DNA from: Leptothoe kymatousa TAU-MAC 1615
GTDB lineage: Bacteria; Cyanobacteriota; Cyanobacteriia; Phormidesmidales; Phormidesmidaceae
NCBI RefSeq assembly: GCF_018739865.1
Contig: NZ_JADOER010000011.1
Coordinates: 1-64,000 of the forward strand
Length of the DNA: 64,000 bases
Direction: 5' to 3'
A model generated the notes under the pieces. The model saw nothing but the letters and a program-made list of their open reading frames with translations, was not told the origin of the DNA and ran no database searches. Below are positions 54,870-63,408 of the stretch, in pieces. Both the position numbers and the translations under genes were made by a program. The number at the start of each line of letters is the position of its first letter. Within the stretch, counting starts at the first letter, position 1.

Positions 54870-56696
54870 GTGAATGTGACGATGGACGCAACAACCTACA
54901 TAAAATCAATTCATAGCAAACTCAATAGTGTTTCCCTTGGGGGGCTGGTGCTAGCGTTAGCCACCCTGCTGACTCCGTTAGCGGCCCCAGCTCAAACCAG
55001 GTCGCCCGAAACCCAGGTATTGACGAGAAGTCCACAACCGCAAAATTATTCTGTGCTCCACGTGGATGCGGCCAATGGGAACGATCAGCAAGGCACCGGG
55101 GAAACGTCTCAACCCTATAAAACCGTGACCCAAGCCCTAGAGGTAGCCCCCCCTGGCCGAAGTACGGTGATTCTGTTAGCCCCGGGTCACTATAGCCAAA
55201 CCTCGGGAGAAACGTTCCCACTACGGCTTAGAGCTGGCATTACTATCCAGGGAAGTGCAGGGGAAGCTCGCAACACAATGATTGTTGGCAGTGGCCCAGT
55301 GACCGCTGGTAGCAGCCACAGCGCTACGGTTGTAACCGCTGAACGCTCAGGTTTAGCCAACGTTGCTATTTCGAATCCTAAGGGAAATGGGGTATGGATT
55401 GAGGCCGGTTCACCAGTCCTACGCCGCATAGCGCTTGTTTCCAACGGAGTCACCGGAATTCACGTTAGCAATGGTGCTCCGATCATTGAAAACAGCTACT
55501 TTAATAGCAACCAAAATGGTTTATCAATTGAAGGCACCAGTCGCGCTGTAGTGCGCGGCAATTATTTTGAGGCCACGGGTCGAGCCATCACCATTACAAA
55601 CCCCGCCACCCCCACTATCAACAATAATCGGATTGCTCGTAACGATGTGGGCATTGCCCTAAAAAACAATGCTCGCCCGATTCTGGAGGCGAACATTCTC
55701 GATCAGAATCGGCGCAATGGTGTTGTCGAAGTAGATACCGTCGCGGTAGCCTCTGACCCAGCAGGTTCCACACCCACAGCGCCTGAACCAGCAGCCTCTA
55801 TACCCACAGCTAACATCGCACTGCCGGCCCAAGCCAGCGCACCTACACCGCTGGCCCATAATATAAGGGCACTGTCTGCACTATCGAATGCACCTACCCC
55901 CAGCCCCACTCCCGTAGAGACTACCGCCACTGCGGACGCAGGGGACGCCGACACAAGTGTGGCCGAGCCCCCTGAGGTAGACGCTGTGCCCTCACCAGAG
56001 CAGACGGCGTCTGATCCCGAGGTAGACGCTGTACCCTCGCCAGAGCAGACGACCCCTGACGAAATCCAGCTCTCTAAATTATTGAGCCCAGAAAGTCTCG
56101 AAGCTGAGGCAGAAGCAACGCCATCAGACACATTGGAAATCCTTGGGGCGCAACCCAGGGAGACAGAAGAGACTCCAGAGGAAACAGAGCCAGATGTTGC
56201 CGGTGAAGCTGATAGCCCGCCTTTAGCATCAGACGCTATCCCCATAGCGGTGATTCCGATTGAAAATGAGGCAGCGGCTTCTGCAACGTCGGTAGAGGAC
56301 AGCCCGAACGACACTAATATTTCTAAACTATTGGCCCGGTTAAATCGTCAGCCGTCTGCCCCAGTCAACAGTAGCCCGCGGCCAAACAATGTTCCTCGCG
56401 ATGGGCAGGCTGGGCGGCTACCTGTCCCGGCAGTGGCGATTCCCAGCAGTCTGGGCACGAACCAACTACCGCCACCGGGCACAGCATCCTTAGCCCAAGC
56501 GTTTCGCTATCGGATTCTGGTGGATATGGATGATGCGGACCATTTAAAGGACTTAGTCCCCGATGCGTTTCGTACCCAGGTTGGTAGACGTACGTTTATG
56601 CAAGCTGGGGCTTATGTCGATGAAGCAGAAGCACAAGAACGGCTGGAATGGCTTGAGGAACATGATATTGAAGCCCGCATTAATGTGAGGGATTAA
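54870..56696 (+). CDS. Secreted DUF1565 beta-helix protein with SPOR-like C-terminus
   Basis: The 608-aa protein starts with GTG (an ATG at 54882 is an alternative). A signal peptide (about 20-42, ending APAQT) is followed by a right-handed beta-helix of DUF1565 type (about 62-285: VDAANGNDQQGTGE, then ladder repeats). A disordered acidic Pro/Thr/Ala linker (about 290-520) contains a 15-residue tandem duplication (EVDAVPSPEQT). The last 70 residues (FRYRILVDMDD...AYVDEAEAQERLEWLEE) resemble a SPOR peptidoglycan-binding module. It is likely a cell-wall-associated or surface protein. The ligand is unknown. Confidence 0.78.
   Translation: MNVTMDATTYIKSIHSKLNSVSLGGLVLALATLLTPLAAPAQTRSPETQVLTRSPQPQNYSVLHVDAANGNDQQGTGETSQPYKTVTQALEVAPPGRSTVILLAPGHYSQTSGETFPLRLRAGITIQGSAGEARNTMIVGSGPVTAGSSHSATVVTAERSGLANVAISNPKGNGVWIEAGSPVLRRIALVSNGVTGIHVSNGAPIIENSYFNSNQNGLSIEGTSRAVVRGNYFEATGRAITITNPATPTINNNRIARNDVGIALKNNARPILEANILDQNRRNGVVEVDTVAVASDPAGSTPTAPEPAASIPTANIALPAQASAPTPLAHNIRALSALSNAPTPSPTPVETTATADAGDADTSVAEPPEVDAVPSPEQTASDPEVDAVPSPEQTTPDEIQLSKLLSPESLEAEAEATPSDTLEILGAQPRETEETPEETEPDVAGEADSPPLASDAIPIAVIPIENEAAASATSVEDSPNDTNISKLLARLNRQPSAPVNSSPRPNNVPRDGQAGRLPVPAVAIPSSLGTNQLPPPGTASLAQAFRYRILVDMDDADHLKDLVPDAFRTQVGRRTFMQAGAYVDEAEAQERLEWLEEHDIEARINVRD
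55974..56051 (+). repeat. 45-bp tandem repeat in the beta-helix gene linker
   Basis: A 33-bp core beginning GAGGTAGACGCTGT occurs at 55974-56006 and 56019-56051 with two substitutions, keeping the frame. A looser 36-bp pair lies upstream near 55757-55820. Confidence 0.8.
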
Positions 56697-56780: not shown

Positions 56781-58553
56781 CTAAAAAATCATATCGAGGT
56801 CATACTCTTGCAAATTTAAGCAGTAAAGTTGGCCCTGGGTGTCTTTTTGCCAGGTCGCCACCAACAGGTCATGGGAATTTAGGGATGCGATCGCAGTAAT
56901 ACCAGCGGGCCCTTGAATCCCACCAATGGGATGAAAATCTCGATCGAGCAACAGAATTTTTCCAGCCTTATCCGCGAACAAATATCCCCAGGGCAGATCT
57001 AACATCAGCACAGGACAAATATCCAGATTCAAACGGGTCATGCGCAAAGGCTTTAGACCGAGTAAGATCACCGTTTCAGGTGCATGGCGATCCAGGGCCA
57101 GCCATTGGTGGCGCTGACGGGTGGAGGTAAACTGACAAAGGGTAATGCCGAGATCTAAGGTCGTAAGGTATAGACTGCGCCGATTCCAAAACTGTAGCTG
57201 GGTTCCGTTTTGGGGAGACTGGCTAACAATGGCAAAATGTCCCCCATCCACCGCAATCACCTGATGTACTGCCAAATCTGGCGGCAGGGGGCGACGAATG
57301 GGATGGTCCACCTGATTGGGCTTACGTAAATGGGTCAGGGTAAGCTGTTTCGTTTGATTCACCACCCCCACCGCCCACCGATGATTCTGATCCACGGCGA
57401 TCAAGGCCGGTTCGGACCATCGCATTAGGGGGGTTAATAATTTGGGATATAGACCACACCATAGGGCCCGGTGAGTCGCCACCATTACGCCTGTTTTAGT
57501 TGGATAAATCCCCTGAATAGGGCTATCTAAAACCTGCTGACATACATGGACACGACGGCTCTCTTCCAACGTGGCCAGCTGAGAACCATGGGACATCAGC
57601 CAAGGGTGAACCTTGTCGGCCGCCGGGGATAGCTCCGAGGGCAACGGCTGGATATGACCGAGGGGTTGAGGCCCGCTATGCACGGCGGCTTGACCATGGG
57701 ACGAATACGCTAATGACGAAAAGTGATAGCTAGGAGAACAAAACTCCGCACTCAAAGCCGGTGCCAGGTGTTCCAAATCGGCGAGCATTTCCACAGCCGT
57801 GGGATAACGGCGGGCGGGCAATTTCTCCAATGCTTTGCTAATTAAAGGTTGTAGTATCTCGATGGATGGATCTAGGTGGGGAACTTTTTGATGCAGGTGA
57901 GCAGACTGCAACACTGCGGGGGTTCCCCTAAACGGGCGTTGCCCCACCAGGAGTTCAAATAGGATCACCCCCACCGCATAGACATCGGCCGCTGGGGAAT
58001 ATTGTCGAAAAAAGCGTTCGGGGGCCATGTACGCAGGAGATCCCGTTTGCCCAGCCCCCCGGCGATAGGATTGTTCTTGAATCAGTTTGGCAATGCCAAA
58101 GTCAGAGATTTTGGCTCGCCAGCGCCCTTGATGGTAACCGAGCAAAATATTTTCGGGCTTAATATCACAGTGCACAATGCCCTGTTGATGGGCATGGGCA
58201 AGACCGCGCAGTATATCGAAACTGAGCTTGAGAATTTCCCCCAACTTGAGGGGACTGAGCATGTGCGATCGCAAAGTCCCCCCGGTACCATATTCCAGCA
58301 CCAGCCGGCGACCATCGCGACAATGCTCTACCGCATAGCAAGCAACAATATTAGGATGAGCCAGACTCAACAAACAACGCAGCTCTCGCAAAAAAGCATG
58401 GGTAGGCAAACTATGACGCTGCAGATATTTAAGCGCCACCAACTGGCCTGTCTTACGATGTACGCCACAGTAAACGCGTCCAAATTGACCATTGCCCACT
58501 AACCCCAGAAGTCGATAGCTGGACCGCTGCTGGTTACGTATCCCTATATTCAT
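56781..58553 (-). CDS. Ser/Thr protein kinase with C-terminal beta-rich domain (SpkG-like)
   Basis: The 590-aa protein starts at ATG 58553, eight bases after the V4R gene stop; open codons upstream overlap that gene and are not coding. The kinase domain (about 12-275) has GNGQFG (20-25), Lys42, HCDIKPEN (Asp130, Asn135), DFG (151-153) and APE. The HCD form replaces HRD. The C-terminal 300 residues contain regular beta-strand units like a propeller (VAVDGGHFAIVSQSP, LLVATWQKDTQGQLYCL). No membrane helix is seen. It ends the V4R/phycobilisome-fold cluster; the equivalent in Synechocystis, as I recall, is SpkG (slr0152). Confidence 0.85.
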   Translation of the reverse strand: MNIGIRNQQRSSYRLLGLVGNGQFGRVYCGVHRKTGQLVALKYLQRHSLPTHAFLRELRCLLSLAHPNIVACYAVEHCRDGRRLVLEYGTGGTLRSHMLSPLKLGEILKLSFDILRGLAHAHQQGIVHCDIKPENILLGYHQGRWRAKISDFGIAKLIQEQSYRRGAGQTGSPAYMAPERFFRQYSPAADVYAVGVILFELLVGQRPFRGTPAVLQSAHLHQKVPHLDPSIEILQPLISKALEKLPARRYPTAVEMLADLEHLAPALSAEFCSPSYHFSSLAYSSHGQAAVHSGPQPLGHIQPLPSELSPAADKVHPWLMSHGSQLATLEESRRVHVCQQVLDSPIQGIYPTKTGVMVATHRALWCGLYPKLLTPLMRWSEPALIAVDQNHRWAVGVVNQTKQLTLTHLRKPNQVDHPIRRPLPPDLAVHQVIAVDGGHFAIVSQSPQNGTQLQFWNRRSLYLTTLDLGITLCQFTSTRQRHQWLALDRHAPETVILLGLKPLRMTRLNLDICPVLMLDLPWGYLFADKAGKILLLDRDFHPIGGIQGPAGITAIASLNSHDLLVATWQKDTQGQLYCLNLQEYDLDMIF

Positions 58554-58563
58554 GCGACCATGG

Positions 58564-59229
58564 TTAAGCAGCTTCCCCAACCAGCGCAGCCATAATATCA
58601 GCGTGGGAAAGCCGTTGTTCCACCCCCGCTGTCGCCACCGCCAAGCGCTCTGGCAAACCCAAGACAAAACAACTTTCCTCGGCCCCCAAAGATTCACAGG
58701 CCGTTTGGACACAGTGCAACGGCTGACCGCTCAGCTCACTAAAAAAGGCCTGGAGTGCCCCGGTCTCTAGAAACCCAACGGGACGTTCCAACTTAGGCGC
58801 ATGTTCAATAAACGCCGAGCCTTGCACTTTAATCACCAAAAAACCCTGGGCACGATACGTGGGATCTAAGCTGATCTGCCCCCAACCGTGGGTTAGCCAA
58901 CACTGCTGCAAAGCCTGAATAAACTCAGCCATGGGTAAGCCACTCACTGGTCGATGGTGATAGTCCGACAGCTCCTCACAGAAACGCGTATAAAAGTTTT
59001 TCCCCCACCACAGGCCACAGTTATACAGCACCAACATCGACGCCTGCCCCGTTTCATTATCTAACCCAGCATAAATAGCTCGAATTAGGGTTTCCGGCAA
59101 CGCTAGCAGCCGATCGCCACGGCGATTCTCCAACAGCCCTAACTCAAGGGTGCCGTGAACATACACATCACTGGCAAAATAATTAGCCGTCAGGTTGATA
59201 TCTGAAAGCAAATCGGCAACAAGCACCAT
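58564..59229 (-). CDS. V4R-domain protein (Slr0147-like)
   Basis: The 221-aa protein has the 4-vinyl reductase (V4R) small-molecule-binding fold: a helical N-terminal half (LIRAIYAGLDNETGQASMLVLYNCGLWWGK) and the C-terminal alpha/beta half. The latter has the conserved Cys pattern CVQTACESLGAEESCFVLG. V4R proteins bind hydrophobic ligands or metal and include BchJ. Order and neighbours match the slr0147 position of the Synechocystis photosystem II assembly operon. It is 8 bp upstream of the kinase. Confidence 0.8.
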   Translation of the reverse strand: MVLVADLLSDINLTANYFASDVYVHGTLELGLLENRRGDRLLALPETLIRAIYAGLDNETGQASMLVLYNCGLWWGKNFYTRFCEELSDYHHRPVSGLPMAEFIQALQQCWLTHGWGQISLDPTYRAQGFLVIKVQGSAFIEHAPKLERPVGFLETGALQAFFSELSGQPLHCVQTACESLGAEESCFVLGLPERLAVATAGVEQRLSHADIMAALVGEAA

Positions 59230-59587
59230 AATGATTAAACTCCCAAGGTGTTTTCAAGGTAAACAAAGCACCTGAACGTGGAGAAATTTTATCACCCAAA
59301 GAGTTTCAGCCGTTGCTGATCCTCGGGATGATTTTATTTCGCATATTCAGATCATCAGCCCGCCCCCCAGATCGTTTCATCCTCTAAATCAGCAACGACA
59401 GGTTGCCAGCCATAAATCCTAGACATGGCGATTCAATAAATTCCCATGTTGCCACGTGCCCATTAGTCTGGCCCAAGCCCATGGGGCTATGGGACTCTGC
59501 TCAGTCCTCTGTGACGGCTAGGAAAACTATGGATTTAATTGATTTCGCTTTTCCTAAGCCAGGAAATCAGCAACGACAACCAGCAAG
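59230..59587. repeat. Non-coding gap inside the V4R operon with repeated 15-mers
   Basis: AAATCAGCAACGACA occurs at 59386-59400 and 59564-59578. An inverted copy of its core (CGTTGCTGAT) lies at 59311-59320. No gene is supported. It may contain a promoter for the two downstream genes or a decayed gene. Confidence 0.5.
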
Positions 59588-60076
59588 CTACTCCTTGGTC
59601 TCGGATTGATATAAAAGTTGCTGGGCCGCTTCTAGGGCAGGTTGCAGGAGAGCAAACTGCACGGGCGTTAGGGACCGCAGCAGGTGCTGATTTAAAGCAC
59701 GGTGGATCAGGGCATCAACCGTTTGGGTCTGATAGACCTCAACCATGGTAGGCAACCACCCCTCCAAACGGCGGCAGCCCAAATTAGCATCATCCACCAA
59801 CATACCCAGGGCGGCATATCGCAAAATAAGCACGGCCTGTTTAATACTTTGCTCTAGGGCCTCCGCATCATTTTGCACCTCTCCGGGCAAGCCATCCACC
59901 AGCTCTTGCATCAGATTCATTTCCCACTCCCGCAGCTGGCGATAGACCCGAATGCGCTCTGATAACCCGCCGACATATTGCCCCAGATTGGCCAATTCCT
60001 GAGAATTTAGATAGCCTTTCTCTGGCTGTAATTCAAGCTGTCGGAAAATATGTTGATGGGGCAAGGAAGATGACAT
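59588..60076 (-). CDS. Phycobilisome-fold protein without bilin cysteine (first paralogue, Slr0146-like)
   Basis: The 162-aa protein (ATG at 60076; a TTG seven codons earlier is discounted) is all helical. The segment SIKQAVLILRYAALGMLVDD aligns with the phycobiliprotein chromophore helix [20 protein letters not shown]. The bilin-binding Cys is Ser77 and the following Arg-Asp is lost, so no covalent bilin is expected. By analogy with other uncoloured phycobiliprotein-fold proteins it could be a scaffold or sensor. Alignment is by eye. Follows the small acidic gene. Confidence 0.7.
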   Translation of the reverse strand: MSSSLPHQHIFRQLELQPEKGYLNSQELANLGQYVGGLSERIRVYRQLREWEMNLMQELVDGLPGEVQNDAEALEQSIKQAVLILRYAALGMLVDDANLGCRRLEGWLPTMVEVYQTQTVDALIHRALNQHLLRSLTPVQFALLQPALEAAQQLLYQSETKE

Positions 60077-60165
60077 GGCAAGCTTAGACGATGACAATTC
60101 TCTAAAACAGTGACATGGGCGTGCATGGGGGCACCCGCACGCCCTCTAGTTTATTGCCTCTCAGC

Positions 60166-60468
60166 CTAAAATAATGCCGATAGATCGTCCAATGTCAGGG
60201 CATCGTCCTCGGCGAGCAGTTGGTCAAAGGCTGCTTCATCGATGTCTATCGCCAAGCGCCTCGCCGATGGAGCTGCCGTGGCGCCCTGCCAAGGAAACGT
60301 GGCAAAAAACTGCCCCACGGTGTCATAGGGAGTCTCGGGGGCACCGCTATTTTCACGCGCTGATCGCTGTTGCGTTCCAGACCAGTTAATCTGCTGAAAG
60401 AAATGATCAACCGTTAGCGTGGATAGGGGCTGTCCCTGGGCATCTAACACCTGCGTCAGATCAGTCAT
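60166..60468 (-). CDS. Small acidic protein of the V4R operon (Slr0145-like)
   Basis: The 100-aa protein is not recognised beyond its place. Its ATG overlaps the stop of the upstream V4R gene (ATGA), a sign of coupled translation. The C-terminal third is acidic and could form an amphipathic helix (DEAAFDQLLAEDDALTLDDL). The middle is rich in Pro/Ala. Such a tail may be a docking peptide. The Slr0145 link is positional only. Confidence 0.65.
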   Translation of the reverse strand: MTDLTQVLDAQGQPLSTLTVDHFFQQINWSGTQQRSARENSGAPETPYDTVGQFFATFPWQGATAAPSARRLAIDIDEAAFDQLLAEDDALTLDDLSALF

Positions 60469-61148
60469 GATGATGTATATCCGGCACGGAGTCGATTTTC
60501 AATATCACTGGCTGTCGCCCCTTCATTGAGCCAAAACGCTGCCGCATCAATTCGATCTTTAGCCCCCAGTAAAAATTTGCAGTAGGTTTCTCCCATGGAG
60601 TAGCACTGAATCTCAATACAGCTGAGTTGTTTACGCACCATTTCGGTAAAAAACCCTGCATATAGGCCTGCGTAGAGATAGCAAACAGGTTTACCGACAT
60701 CCCCCAGGGTACGGGCCACCGCCGAATCAAATAGGTTAATAAACATAAACCCCTGTTGGCGATCGGTCATATCGATTTCCCAGCGGCCCCAGCCCTGGGC
60801 CGTAAAGGGCCACCACCAGGTTTCGAGTAAAAACATCAGGTTCGCCTGTTGGGGGCGGATGTTGTATTCGCGCTCAAACCATTGGTCAAAAAATAAAGAA
60901 TCTTGCTTCCCCCATTCCACACCGATGGAGTACATCACGGCCGCAGAAGCCGCACCCACTTCTTCTTCTAAGCCTTCCAGCAGACCGATAATAAAATGTT
61001 CGCTAGTAATAATATTGCGGCTACCGTTCCAATCAGCAATGGTGCCCTCGGTGGCATTGAACTGAAAAAATTCAGAGAACTTGTAGTGGCTATGTTTTTG
61101 TGGGTGTTGCTGACGTAGTTTGTGGGCAGAAACCGACGGGGTATCCAT
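60465..61148 (-). CDS. V4R-domain protein (Slr0144-like)
   Basis: The 227-aa protein has a full V4R domain like its downstream paralogue, with helical N-part (IIGLLEGLEEEVGAASAAVMYSIG) and the Cys-rich end CIEIQCYSMGETYCKFLLG. The C-terminal ATASDIENRLR motif recurs in the paralogue as SHADIMAALV, so duplication is likely. Photosystem II assembly or pigment handling is proposed for the family by analogy. It is second in the cluster, 36 bp after the second phycobilisome-fold gene. Confidence 0.82.
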   Translation of the reverse strand: MDTPSVSAHKLRQQHPQKHSHYKFSEFFQFNATEGTIADWNGSRNIITSEHFIIGLLEGLEEEVGAASAAVMYSIGVEWGKQDSLFFDQWFEREYNIRPQQANLMFLLETWWWPFTAQGWGRWEIDMTDRQQGFMFINLFDSAVARTLGDVGKPVCYLYAGLYAGFFTEMVRKQLSCIEIQCYSMGETYCKFLLGAKDRIDAAAFWLNEGATASDIENRLRAGYTSS

Positions 61149-61184
61149 AGATTTAATCTACGTGGGTGTACTTTTAGGGTAACG

Positions 61185-61655
61185 CTATTGCCCTAGCAAG
61201 CGCCGAGCCCGGGCTAAAATCGGACAAAATAGTTCCGCCTCTTGGGGAGTCAGATACTGACGCACAACGTCTTGCATTGTTTTATAGGTAATATCACAAC
61301 TCTGTTGTGCTTTGAAGGCGCGCATAATTGACTGGAACCACAGCAGTAAGCTCTCTTCTAGCCCCTCTTCATCGGCCACAAGCATGGCATGGGCGCAGAA
61401 GCGGAGAACCCGCACAGTATCTCGCTGCCATTTGGCACTGATGTCTGCCTTGCCCCGCCTTAGCAGCTGAGGTTCGGTAGCTTTGAGTTTTTGCTTAACC
61501 TGTTGAATGATGGCCCGCTCAGATTTTTGAATTTTTTGATAGGCATTAAACCGCAGGCGTGCTGTTTGCAGGTAGTTTTGCATAAACAGCAGTTCGTTAT
61601 CGGTGGCATAGCGACCATCCACTTCACGGATGAGGGTTTCAATGTGACTCAGCAT
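61185..61655 (-). CDS. Phycobilisome-fold protein without bilin cysteine (second paralogue)
   Basis: The 156-aa helical protein has a helix set like phycobiliprotein subunits. The KWQRDTVRVLRFCAHAMLVADEEGLEE stretch aligns with [22 protein letters not shown]: Arg-Asp is kept and the bilin Cys is Trp76. It also has RFNAYQKIQKSERAI, similar to RIxxAEKIT of phycobiliproteins. It should not carry a covalent bilin. It heads the minus-strand cluster of V4R genes and could be the partner of the first paralogue. No clear counterpart position is known to me in slr0144-slr0152. Confidence 0.7.
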   Translation of the reverse strand: MLSHIETLIREVDGRYATDNELLFMQNYLQTARLRFNAYQKIQKSERAIIQQVKQKLKATEPQLLRRGKADISAKWQRDTVRVLRFCAHAMLVADEEGLEESLLLWFQSIMRAFKAQQSCDITYKTMQDVVRQYLTPQEAELFCPILARARRLLGQ

Positions 61656-61696
61656 AGAAAATGGGTGAGTAGAAAGGGAACTGGCCTGATGACGGA

Positions 61697-62041
61697 TTAG
61701 TAGCGAGGAATGGAATTATCCACCAATCGAGCATAGGCATCAATCCCACCCACCAGGTTTTTGGTTCGTTCAAACCCTTGGCGCTGTAACCACTGGCACA
61801 TTTGGGCAGATCGCATACCGTGGTGACACATCACGATGGTCTCTAGACTAGGATCTAAGTGGGTGAAAATTTGCTCCGCCCAATCAGCGTACTGACCAAA
61901 GGGTAAATGGATAAAGTTGGGCAGATTTGCGATCGCAACTTCCTCCGGCTCCCGCACATCCACCAGCTGTAAATCGCCTTCTGCCAAACGTTGGGCAAAG
62001 TCAATGGGTGAGATTTCGTCAACTCCAGCAATTCCGTACAT
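61697..62041 (-). CDS. Single-domain rhodanese-like protein
   Basis: The 114-aa protein is a single rhodanese fold with LVDVREPEE and the active loop CHHGMRS, where the Cys could carry a persulfide. Such proteins give sulfur or act in redox control. It is 41 bp upstream of the phycobilisome-fold gene on the same strand and may share its transcript. Confidence 0.9.
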   Translation of the reverse strand: MYGIAGVDEISPIDFAQRLAEGDLQLVDVREPEEVAIANLPNFIHLPFGQYADWAEQIFTHLDPSLETIVMCHHGMRSAQMCQWLQRQGFERTKNLVGGIDAYARLVDNSIPRY

Positions 62042-62190: not shown

Positions 62191-63408
62191 ATGGCCTCCC
62201 CAGAACCGAACCCTTTAGCCAAACCAACCAAGCAGGAACGCCCTAACCAGCCCCGCAACCTCCTAGGTAAAATCGCTAGCGCTCTGGGGGCGGCGACCGG
62301 AGCATTGGGCAAACAAACCGAAAAAACCGCCCACACCCTTGGCAACACCGCCAAAAATACCGGCAACACCTTGACCCATGCCGCCAGCCAAACCAGCCAA
62401 ATTGTCATCAATACGGCCACTAACTTGACCCATGCCGCTGGCCATAGCGCCCAGCGAGCAACCAGCAGCATCGGACAATTAACAGGATGGATCCAGGCCA
62501 ATCCCCTGTTTCGCACCGCTACCGAAAGCCTAAATCTAGACTGGTTAGTGGAACTGCTAGATACCGTCGATGTGCAAAAAGCCACCGCAGAAGTAGACAA
62601 AATTCGAGCCAAACACCCGAACGATAGCCCTGGCCAGTTGGCCCATCGTCTCATGGTGCGCAAAGCTACCCTAGCCGCGAGCACCGGTCTCGCCAGCAGC
62701 GCCTTACCCGGCATGGCCACCGCCCTCTTTGCCCTCGACTTTGCCGTCACCATGTCGCTCCAGGCAGAGTTGGTCTACCAAATTGCAGCAGCCTACGGGT
62801 TAGGGTTAGAAAACCCTGCCCGCAAAGGTGAAGTGCTCGCCATTTTCGGGCTGTCTATGGGCGGCAATAAAGCCATTGAAGGGGGTGTGAAATATGCCAC
62901 CCGGGCCGGGCTATTGGGATTTTTGAAAAACGTGCCAGCCGCAGGAGCCGTGATCGGCTGCAGTACCAATGCCGCCATGACCTACTCCCTAGGCTATGCT
63001 GCCTGTCGGTTTTACGAAGCAAAGCTCAACCCGCTACAGTCAGAGCAAGCGCTCGCAGCATCCACTAGCGACAGCGACACCTATTTGCAACAGGCCATTG
63101 CCCAAGAGGTGGTCATGGATCTGATTTTGGTGCACATTATGTTGGCCAATACCCCAGAACAATCTTTAACAGACAGCCTATCCACCCTAAAAACAACCCT
63201 AGGGTTGGCACCAGCCACATTAGAGACCCTAGAAAAAGAAGGGCTGCCAGAACTCTCAACATTGTTACCCAAAGTCAATGAAGACTTTGCCATTCCCCTT
63301 ATCATCCGTTGTCAGAAAATCATTGAACTAGATGGCACAGTCACCGATGCTGAAGCGAAAATCATCCATGAGATTCGTACAACATTAGATGTAAAAACCG
63401 AAGATTAA
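62191..63408 (+). CDS. EcsC-like protein with LEA-type N-terminal repeats and TerB-like C-terminus
   Basis: The 405-aa protein has three parts. Residues about 25-100 are an amphipathic, Ala/Thr/Asn-rich series (KTAHTLGNTAKNTGNTLTHA) like LEA-type 11-mer repeats. The middle (about 150-290) has hydrophobic, Gly/Ala-rich helices (LASSALPGMATALFALDFAV) like EcsC/DUF697 proteins. The end (about 365-403) has IELDGTVTDAEAKIIHE, a TerB-like acidic motif. Role unknown; membrane association is likely. It is divergent from the rhodanese gene. Confidence 0.6.
   Translation: MASPEPNPLAKPTKQERPNQPRNLLGKIASALGAATGALGKQTEKTAHTLGNTAKNTGNTLTHAASQTSQIVINTATNLTHAAGHSAQRATSSIGQLTGWIQANPLFRTATESLNLDWLVELLDTVDVQKATAEVDKIRAKHPNDSPGQLAHRLMVRKATLAASTGLASSALPGMATALFALDFAVTMSLQAELVYQIAAAYGLGLENPARKGEVLAIFGLSMGGNKAIEGGVKYATRAGLLGFLKNVPAAGAVIGCSTNAAMTYSLGYAACRFYEAKLNPLQSEQALAASTSDSDTYLQQAIAQEVVMDLILVHIMLANTPEQSLTDSLSTLKTTLGLAPATLETLEKEGLPELSTLLPKVNEDFAIPLIIRCQKIIELDGTVTDAEAKIIHEIRTTLDVKTED

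Follow-up and report, generated by a model that had tools for sequence, protein, structure and literature searches.

What does the run of V4R, phycobiliprotein-fold and kinase genes in Leptothoe kymatousa TAU-MAC 1615 represent: a reduced relative of the photosystem II (PSII) assembly gene set (Pap; slr0144-slr0152) of Synechocystis, or the same set in another arrangement? The window, i.e., the whole stretch of DNA analyzed, comprises 64,000 nt (assembly GCF_018739865.1, contig NZ_JADOER010000011.1, positions 1-64,000 of the forward strand), and a sequence-only reading of it had described seven same-strand genes at 56781-62041, all of which we found as minus-strand open reading frames (ORFs). 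Homology, gene order and co-inheritance are demonstrated in this analysis, and it appears very likely from the sequence comparisons that the locus represents the known PSII-linked Pap gene set in a rearranged form shared by many cyanobacteria. In gene order, its features are:

61697-62041, minus strand: single-domain rhodanese, 114 aa, loop CHHGMRS, first in the run (Pfam Rhodanese, 3.9e-14)
61185-61655, minus strand: PBPa, an slr0149-type phycobiliprotein-fold (PBP-fold) protein (P0006), BBAG-like, with KWQRD (Pfam Phycobilisome, 4e-20)
60465-61148, minus strand: V4Ra, an slr0144-type V4R protein with a C-E-C-C metal-type site (Pfam V4R, 1.1e-18)
60166-60468, minus strand: small acidic protein of slr0145 type, with FF....W.G motifs and an acidic tail (homology, position)
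59588-60076, minus strand: PBPb, an slr0146-type PBP-fold protein (P0003) (homology, AlphaFold2 model, Foldseek)
59230-59587, no strand: gap of 358 nt between PBPb and V4Rb, with two dispersed repeats (repeat matches across the assembly)
58564-59229, minus strand: V4Rb, an slr0147-type V4R protein (Pfam V4R, 1.6e-12)
56781-58553, minus strand: SpkG-type (slr0152) Ser/Thr kinase, best start ATG 58553 (Pfam Pkinase, 3.5e-48)

Both V4R proteins scored above the Pfam cut-off. From rhodanese to kinase, the intergenic gaps measured 41, 36, -4, 89, 358, and 10 nt; the last of these, between V4Rb and the kinase, had been given as 8 bp and is corrected here. The small acidic protein (100 aa, 15 D+E versus 4 K+R) had a calculated pI of 4.05, and an alternative start is possible for PBPb (TTG at 60097).

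The proposed likeness to slr0144-slr0152 was borne out for six of the genes, which are homologous to slr0144, slr0145, slr0146, slr0147, slr0149, and slr0152. These numbers were assigned by way of locus order, with loci L171-L174 and L108 (Cyanobacteria bacterium RI_101) as the comparison and not the Synechocystis sequences themselves. In these loci the genes run V4Ra, small, PBPb, V4Rb, Fed5-type, PBPa, a gap, TPR-type, kinase, and because this is the published order of slr0144-slr0152, the window genes could be numbered accordingly. Inside the gap, a Fed4-like ferredoxin was found in L171, L173, L174, and L108, and none by strict motif in L172. In the papers cited, V4R proteins are encoded at slr0144 and slr0147 (PMC13326532), Fed5 is slr0148 and Fed4 is slr0150 (PMC4284462), a globin lies at slr0149 (PMC10151467), and SpkG is slr0152 (PMC11863333). 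An apcB-like and an apcA-like gene are both placed in the Pap cluster by PMC4284462, in whose printed order the apcA-like gene has fed4 ahead of it and fed5 behind it, contrary to its own locus numbers; we followed the numbers.

A protein-by-protein comparison, proposed in the sequence-only reading as a check, was made against three Synechocystis-order loci (L171, L172, and L108), and the six window proteins matched position by position. V4Ra was 61-63% identical to the slr0144-position genes and V4Rb 47-49% to those at slr0147, while PBPa and PBPb showed 32-39% and 30-34% identity to the slr0149- and slr0146-position genes, respectively. The small protein reached 33-35% against the slr0145-position genes (best alignments; best E 2.2e-8). 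For the kinase, full-length identity was 35-36% to L171 and L108 (with L171's slr0152-position gene, 36% over 619 columns), and to L172 the kinase domain was 52% identical. V4Ra, small, PBPb, and V4Rb thus stand in the same order as in the Pap operon of Synechocystis sp. PCC 6803, with the two V4R genes flanking the slr0145- and slr0146-type genes, and an slr0149-type protein and an SpkG-type kinase are present in the window as well. The window differs in that the slr0149-type gene lies upstream rather than downstream, the kinase directly follows V4Rb, a rhodanese is added, Fed5 is unlinked instead of lying within the operon, and neither a Fed4-type ferredoxin nor an Slr0151-type TPR protein was found.

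Comparison of gene order across cyanobacteria, also proposed earlier, drew on 108 loci, each with a distinct V4Ra protein and none of them the window's; because Fed5 was the route to many of them, the shares given here do not reflect natural frequencies. The order PBPa-V4Ra-small-PBPb-V4Rb-kinase recurred in 29 of the 108 loci, in many genera as judged by group code, and the cluster is therefore beyond chance. A Fed5-type gene was present in the stretch in 11 of these 29, in each case just upstream (L036, L040, L077, L082, L118, L120, L124, L126, L127, L129, and L138), and absent from the fetched stretch in the other 18. The small gene followed V4Ra in 102/108 loci, and the 4-nt overlap between them, correctly noted earlier at 60465-60468, was conserved in 76 of those 102. 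V4Rb lay near V4Ra in 104/108 loci, with a kinase after V4Rb within 450 nt in 44/108 and within 5 kb in 66/108; Fed5 came directly after V4Rb in 34/108 and ≤2.5 kb upstream of V4Ra in 29/108. A further arrangement, Fed5, V4Ra, (small), PBP-fold, and V4Rb in a stretch where no kinase was seen, was observed in L044, L169, L170 (Synechococcus sp. M44_DOE_062), L184, L185, and L189, and this Fed5-first, kinase-less order may be nearer the ancestral one.

The locus had been thought to have lost, or never gained, the ferredoxins. For Fed5 this was not so, as a Fed5-type (slr0148) protein of 159 aa is encoded on another contig of the genome (G000:C4:200452-200931) and is 53-73% identical to the Fed5 proteins of 17 other loci. 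In a survey of 388 genomes of the class (completeness ≥90% requested; the window's own, at 75%, included), V4R matches were found in 211 and Fed5-type matches (E up to 1e-40) in 209. Fed5 was present in 209/211 genomes with V4R (the exceptions being G108 and G145) and in 0/177 without; the weak single V4R matches in G057, G074, G168, and G267 fit V4Rb rather than V4Ra. A PBP-fold profile, which catches both PBP types and at its threshold does not separate PBPa from PBPb, matched in 210/211 genomes with V4R and 0/177 without. Among the 39 nearest genomes, which overlap the larger set, Fed5 occurred in 31/32 with V4R and, as a full-length match, in 0/7 without; the 83%-complete G022 had V4R alone. 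Members of genera g2 (G096), g10 (G186), and g12 (G262 and G292) that had no V4R were also without Fed5, PBP-fold, and kinase matches, all of which occur in most of their congeners. Within the window's genus, Fed5 lay away from the cluster in 8/8 genomes, at distances on the same contig of 1.1 Mb in G005 and 1.9 Mb in G004. No mention of an unlinked Fed5 was found in the available excerpts of open-licence literature on slr0144-slr0149, V4R, BBAG, and SpkG.

For the Fed4-type ferredoxin and the Slr0151-type TPR protein, the results are consistent with loss or with never having been gained. In the window genome, with an assembly 75% complete, tblastn on five stretches (five of the six Fer2 matches) gave ordinary plant-type ferredoxins and no Fed4-type, and no full-length relative of Slr0151 was found, the matches listed being TPR-only (best E 4.5e-12). 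Fed5 positions 18 and 72, which we take to be its phosphosites (Thr18 and Thr72), were Thr in 114/116 and 112/116 sequences, duplicates included; since Fed5 is highly conserved overall, this is weak evidence. We also observed that the unlinked Fed5 gene of the window genome is immediately preceded by a gene for a 248-aa protein (L088:8605-9351) and that, at G003:C166:3040-3519, a Fed5-type match has one internal TAG, which may reflect assembly error or decay.

The kinase also tracked V4R. An SpkG-type profile (E up to 1e-90) matched in 201/388 genomes, comprising 195/211 with V4R and 6/177 without, and the association held even where the genes were unlinked, as in G070, where 484 kb separate the kinase from V4Ra. 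The window kinase scored E 2.1e-211 against the SpkG-family profile, in which its own sequence is included. Its catalytic HRD reads HCD, as it did in 68/70 sequences (the window and 69 relatives; one had HRD and one gave no match), so that by sequence HCD is a conserved trait of the SpkG-type family. The AlphaFold2 model (pLDDT 80.3) predicted a kinase domain followed by 23 strands from 346 to 580. In a structure search with this model, the best 50 of 2000 matches were all protein kinases or kinase holoenzymes; it is thus from the 23 predicted strands that we read a β-rich C-terminal domain, which may be a β-propeller. A kinase domain with a long C-terminal region, HCD in the family, and co-inheritance with the cluster are all shared with SpkG (slr0152), from which the window protein differs in following the slr0147-type gene directly and in having kinase activity that is predicted. 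In Synechocystis, phosphorylation of Fed5 depends on SpkG (PMC11863333, PMC10651672), and the kinase activity of SpkG itself has been called unproven (PMC11863333).

Both PBP types are standard members of the set and occur in the Synechocystis-order loci, which contradicts the earlier claim that the locus adds a second PBP-fold protein. PBPb matched Pfam Phycobilisome at only 7e-4, below the cut-off. The 50 Foldseek matches listed for its AlphaFold2 model (pLDDT 87.8, pTM 0.80) were all phycobilisome-core, allophycocyanin, or other phycobiliprotein chains, with TM by query length of 0.60-0.75 and a best E of 6.5e-4 (two below 0.001); as modeled, PBPb has a globin-like phycobiliprotein fold. 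The PBPa profile gave P0003 70 bits and the PBPb profile gave P0006 85 bits, whereas eight phycobilisome proteins of the same genome scored ≤41 and ≤27 bits, respectively, indicating that each of the two resembles the other more than it does the antenna proteins.

The attachment site, Cys in all eight phycobilisome proteins tested, is Trp in PBPa of the window and its genus. Alignment of 95 PBPa sequences (the window and 94 ORFs, duplicates included) showed Trp in 50, Cys in 42, Phe in 2, and Ser in 1 at this column; among the 91 distinct sequences the counts were 48, 40, 2, and 1. The description of the scaffold as uncolored is partly right, as the window PBPa has Trp at the usual bilin site; the 42 sequences with Cys there include those of the Synechocystis-order loci L171-L174. 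The Asp three places past the site was kept in 93/95 sequences (Asn in 2) and the Arg preceding it in 66/95. For PBPb, no CxRD cysteine was seen by eye in 34 alignment rows. In a quick tree of the 91 distinct PBPa sequences, from which the Cys/Trp column was left out and in which many forks were weak, the Trp label had to be gained or lost at least four times on well-supported branches, and five times at fewest overall. Cys occupied the deepest branches, and the Cys rows L073, L125, and L146, nested among Trp rows, look like a return to Cys. Adjacency of Fed5 was considered as a cause of Cys loss and rejected: Trp also occurs with Fed5 adjoining (L036, L040, and L077), and in L080 the site is Cys although the stretch fetched shows no Fed5.

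The window locus shares with the BBAG/pre-PcyA clusters (PMC10151467) an Fe-S protein, two V4R proteins, and a phycobiliprotein-like globin, the Fe-S gene being unlinked here; unlike those clusters, it has no FDBR or heme oxygenase among its seven genes, and the CXRD cysteine is replaced (WQRD). Some cyanobacterial BBAGs carry the CXRD motif, which is not universal in the family (PMC10151467), and absence of the Cys from others is thereby implied in that paper, the main text of which contains neither 'Trp' nor 'slr0146'. The literature excerpts named above for unlinked Fed5 likewise held no mention of a Cys/Trp exchange. The Trp at the PBPa site and its recurrence are the freshest observation made here.

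In V4Ra, C156 was kept in 113/113 sequences and E179, C182, and C190 each in 112/113. V4Ra aligned weakly with the end of the ligand domain in PoxR and MopR, regulators that sense aromatics (E 0.011 and 0.22), and the near-invariant C-E-C-C residues fall within this alignment; the corresponding residues of PoxR/MopR are presumably zinc ligands. In the window V4Rb, by eye, the first Cys has become Gly and the Glu has become Gln, and the two later Cys are mostly kept across V4Rb sequences.

Taken as a whole, the comparisons suggest that the locus probably encodes a thylakoid V4R/pseudo-phycobiliprotein/Fed5 complex under SpkG-type control. The two V4R proteins would be the ligand binders, with a hydrophobic ligand that is probably a tetrapyrrole or an intermediate of chlorophyll; PBPa and PBPb could pair as an alpha/beta-like scaffold, here with no bilin attached at the usual cysteine position; Fed5, whose gene lies apart from the cluster, would bring electrons to the complex; and the kinase may sense its state through the β-rich C-terminal domain and set Fed5 activity, the net effect being support of photosystem assembly or repair. 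Collinearity of L171-L174 and L108 with the Synechocystis order supports this proposal, and it is consistent with reports that Slr0144-Slr0149 associate at the thylakoid (PMC9880817) and that loss of the operon lowers PSII activity (PMC9145668, PMC5970561). Several points weigh against it. The kinase link is looser, since full-length SpkG-type kinases occur in V4R-less G009, G011, and G012, weaker matches occur in V4R-less G019, G086, and G116, and 16/211 genomes with V4R have no kinase match at threshold; the operon has also been given as slr0144-slr0151, excluding the kinase (PMC4284462). Shared losses are partly clade-wide, so that genome counts are not independent events, and the repeat-bearing gap of 358 nt makes a single transcript less sure. 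In Synechocystis, network analysis links the cluster also to photosystem I subunits, and its loss leaves growth unaffected (PMC5970561); fed4 and fed5 deletions grew well (PMC4284462), and the photosystem effects may belong to the adjacent slr0150-slr0152 (PMC10151467). G009, G011, and G012 belong to the window's family and are without V4R and Fed5 matches.

The sequence-only reading saw in this locus a reduced, minimal unit in which V4R, an uncolored scaffold, and a kinase suffice and work without ferredoxin. Fed5 does not adjoin the cluster, the searches gave neither a Fed4-type nor an Slr0151-type gene, and both window PBP-fold proteins are without the bilin cysteine, all of which would fit; the same order is nevertheless found in many genomes, with Fed5 just upstream in 11 of the 29 same-order loci, and the idea is contradicted by the retention of Fed5 on contig C4 and its co-inheritance with V4R, which leave it very improbable. 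A regulatory module that is not specific to PSII, with V4R and PBP-fold proteins as sensors of a bilin or chlorophyll intermediate and a kinase with several targets as recipient of their signal, is possible and would agree with the PoxR/MopR alignment and its nearly invariant C-E-C-C, with the large predicted β-rich domain, with the kinases retained in some V4R-less genomes, and with the salt and H2O2 effects seen in spkG mutants (PMC11863333, PMC10651672). We consider it unlikely on balance, as the substrate tied to SpkG is Fed5 and the reported complex is Slr0144-Slr0149, with SpkG not mentioned there in the excerpt available (PMC9880817).

Somewhat more doubtful is a loose neighborhood of two or three transcripts, with the rhodanese as an unrelated passenger. 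The rhodanese is indeed extra to the Pap set, as had been proposed, and it lay upstream of the cluster in only 10/108 loci, 10/10 of them from the window's genus or family. The 358-nt gap carries repeats at ~59311-59400 (inverted arms 59311-59331/59377-59397) and ~59477-59559, which are short, dispersed, and of two kinds; scoring of 40 of 94 candidates gave at least 31 more matches across the assembly. Promoter- and terminator-like matches showed no excess over shuffles (6 found versus 5.6 expected and 7 versus 6.6, respectively), and so neither place nor exclude a transcript break. Against a loose neighborhood stand the conserved gene order and 4-nt overlap, and the same gap measured 14-139 nt in seven genus relatives (ORF starts taken mechanically). 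The operon was called compact in the sequence-only reading; the 358-nt gap lessens confidence in one transcript. On the opposite strand, the locus is bordered by genes for an EcsC-family protein (62191-63408, plus strand) and a beta-helix (DUF1565) protein (54870-56696, plus strand).

The functional unit of the proposed thylakoid complex is defined by co-inheritance: V4R, PBP-fold, and Fed5 genes occur together almost without exception, and the SpkG-type kinase nearly as often, whether or not the genes are linked. A more speculative proposal, which we regard as rather unlikely, is that the complex evolved from a bilin-carrying to a pigment-switching or pigment-free state, as the four or more Cys/Trp changes, the apparent return to Cys, and the kept Asp might indicate, with a tetrapyrrole perhaps held non-covalently. 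If true, a bilin protein would have become a carrier able to take up and release ligand on behalf of the two V4R proteins, partnered by Fed5 and the SpkG-type kinase irrespective of linkage. Since Cys and Trp replace each other naturally in the slr0149-type protein, it can be asked directly whether covalent bilin attachment is important for it.

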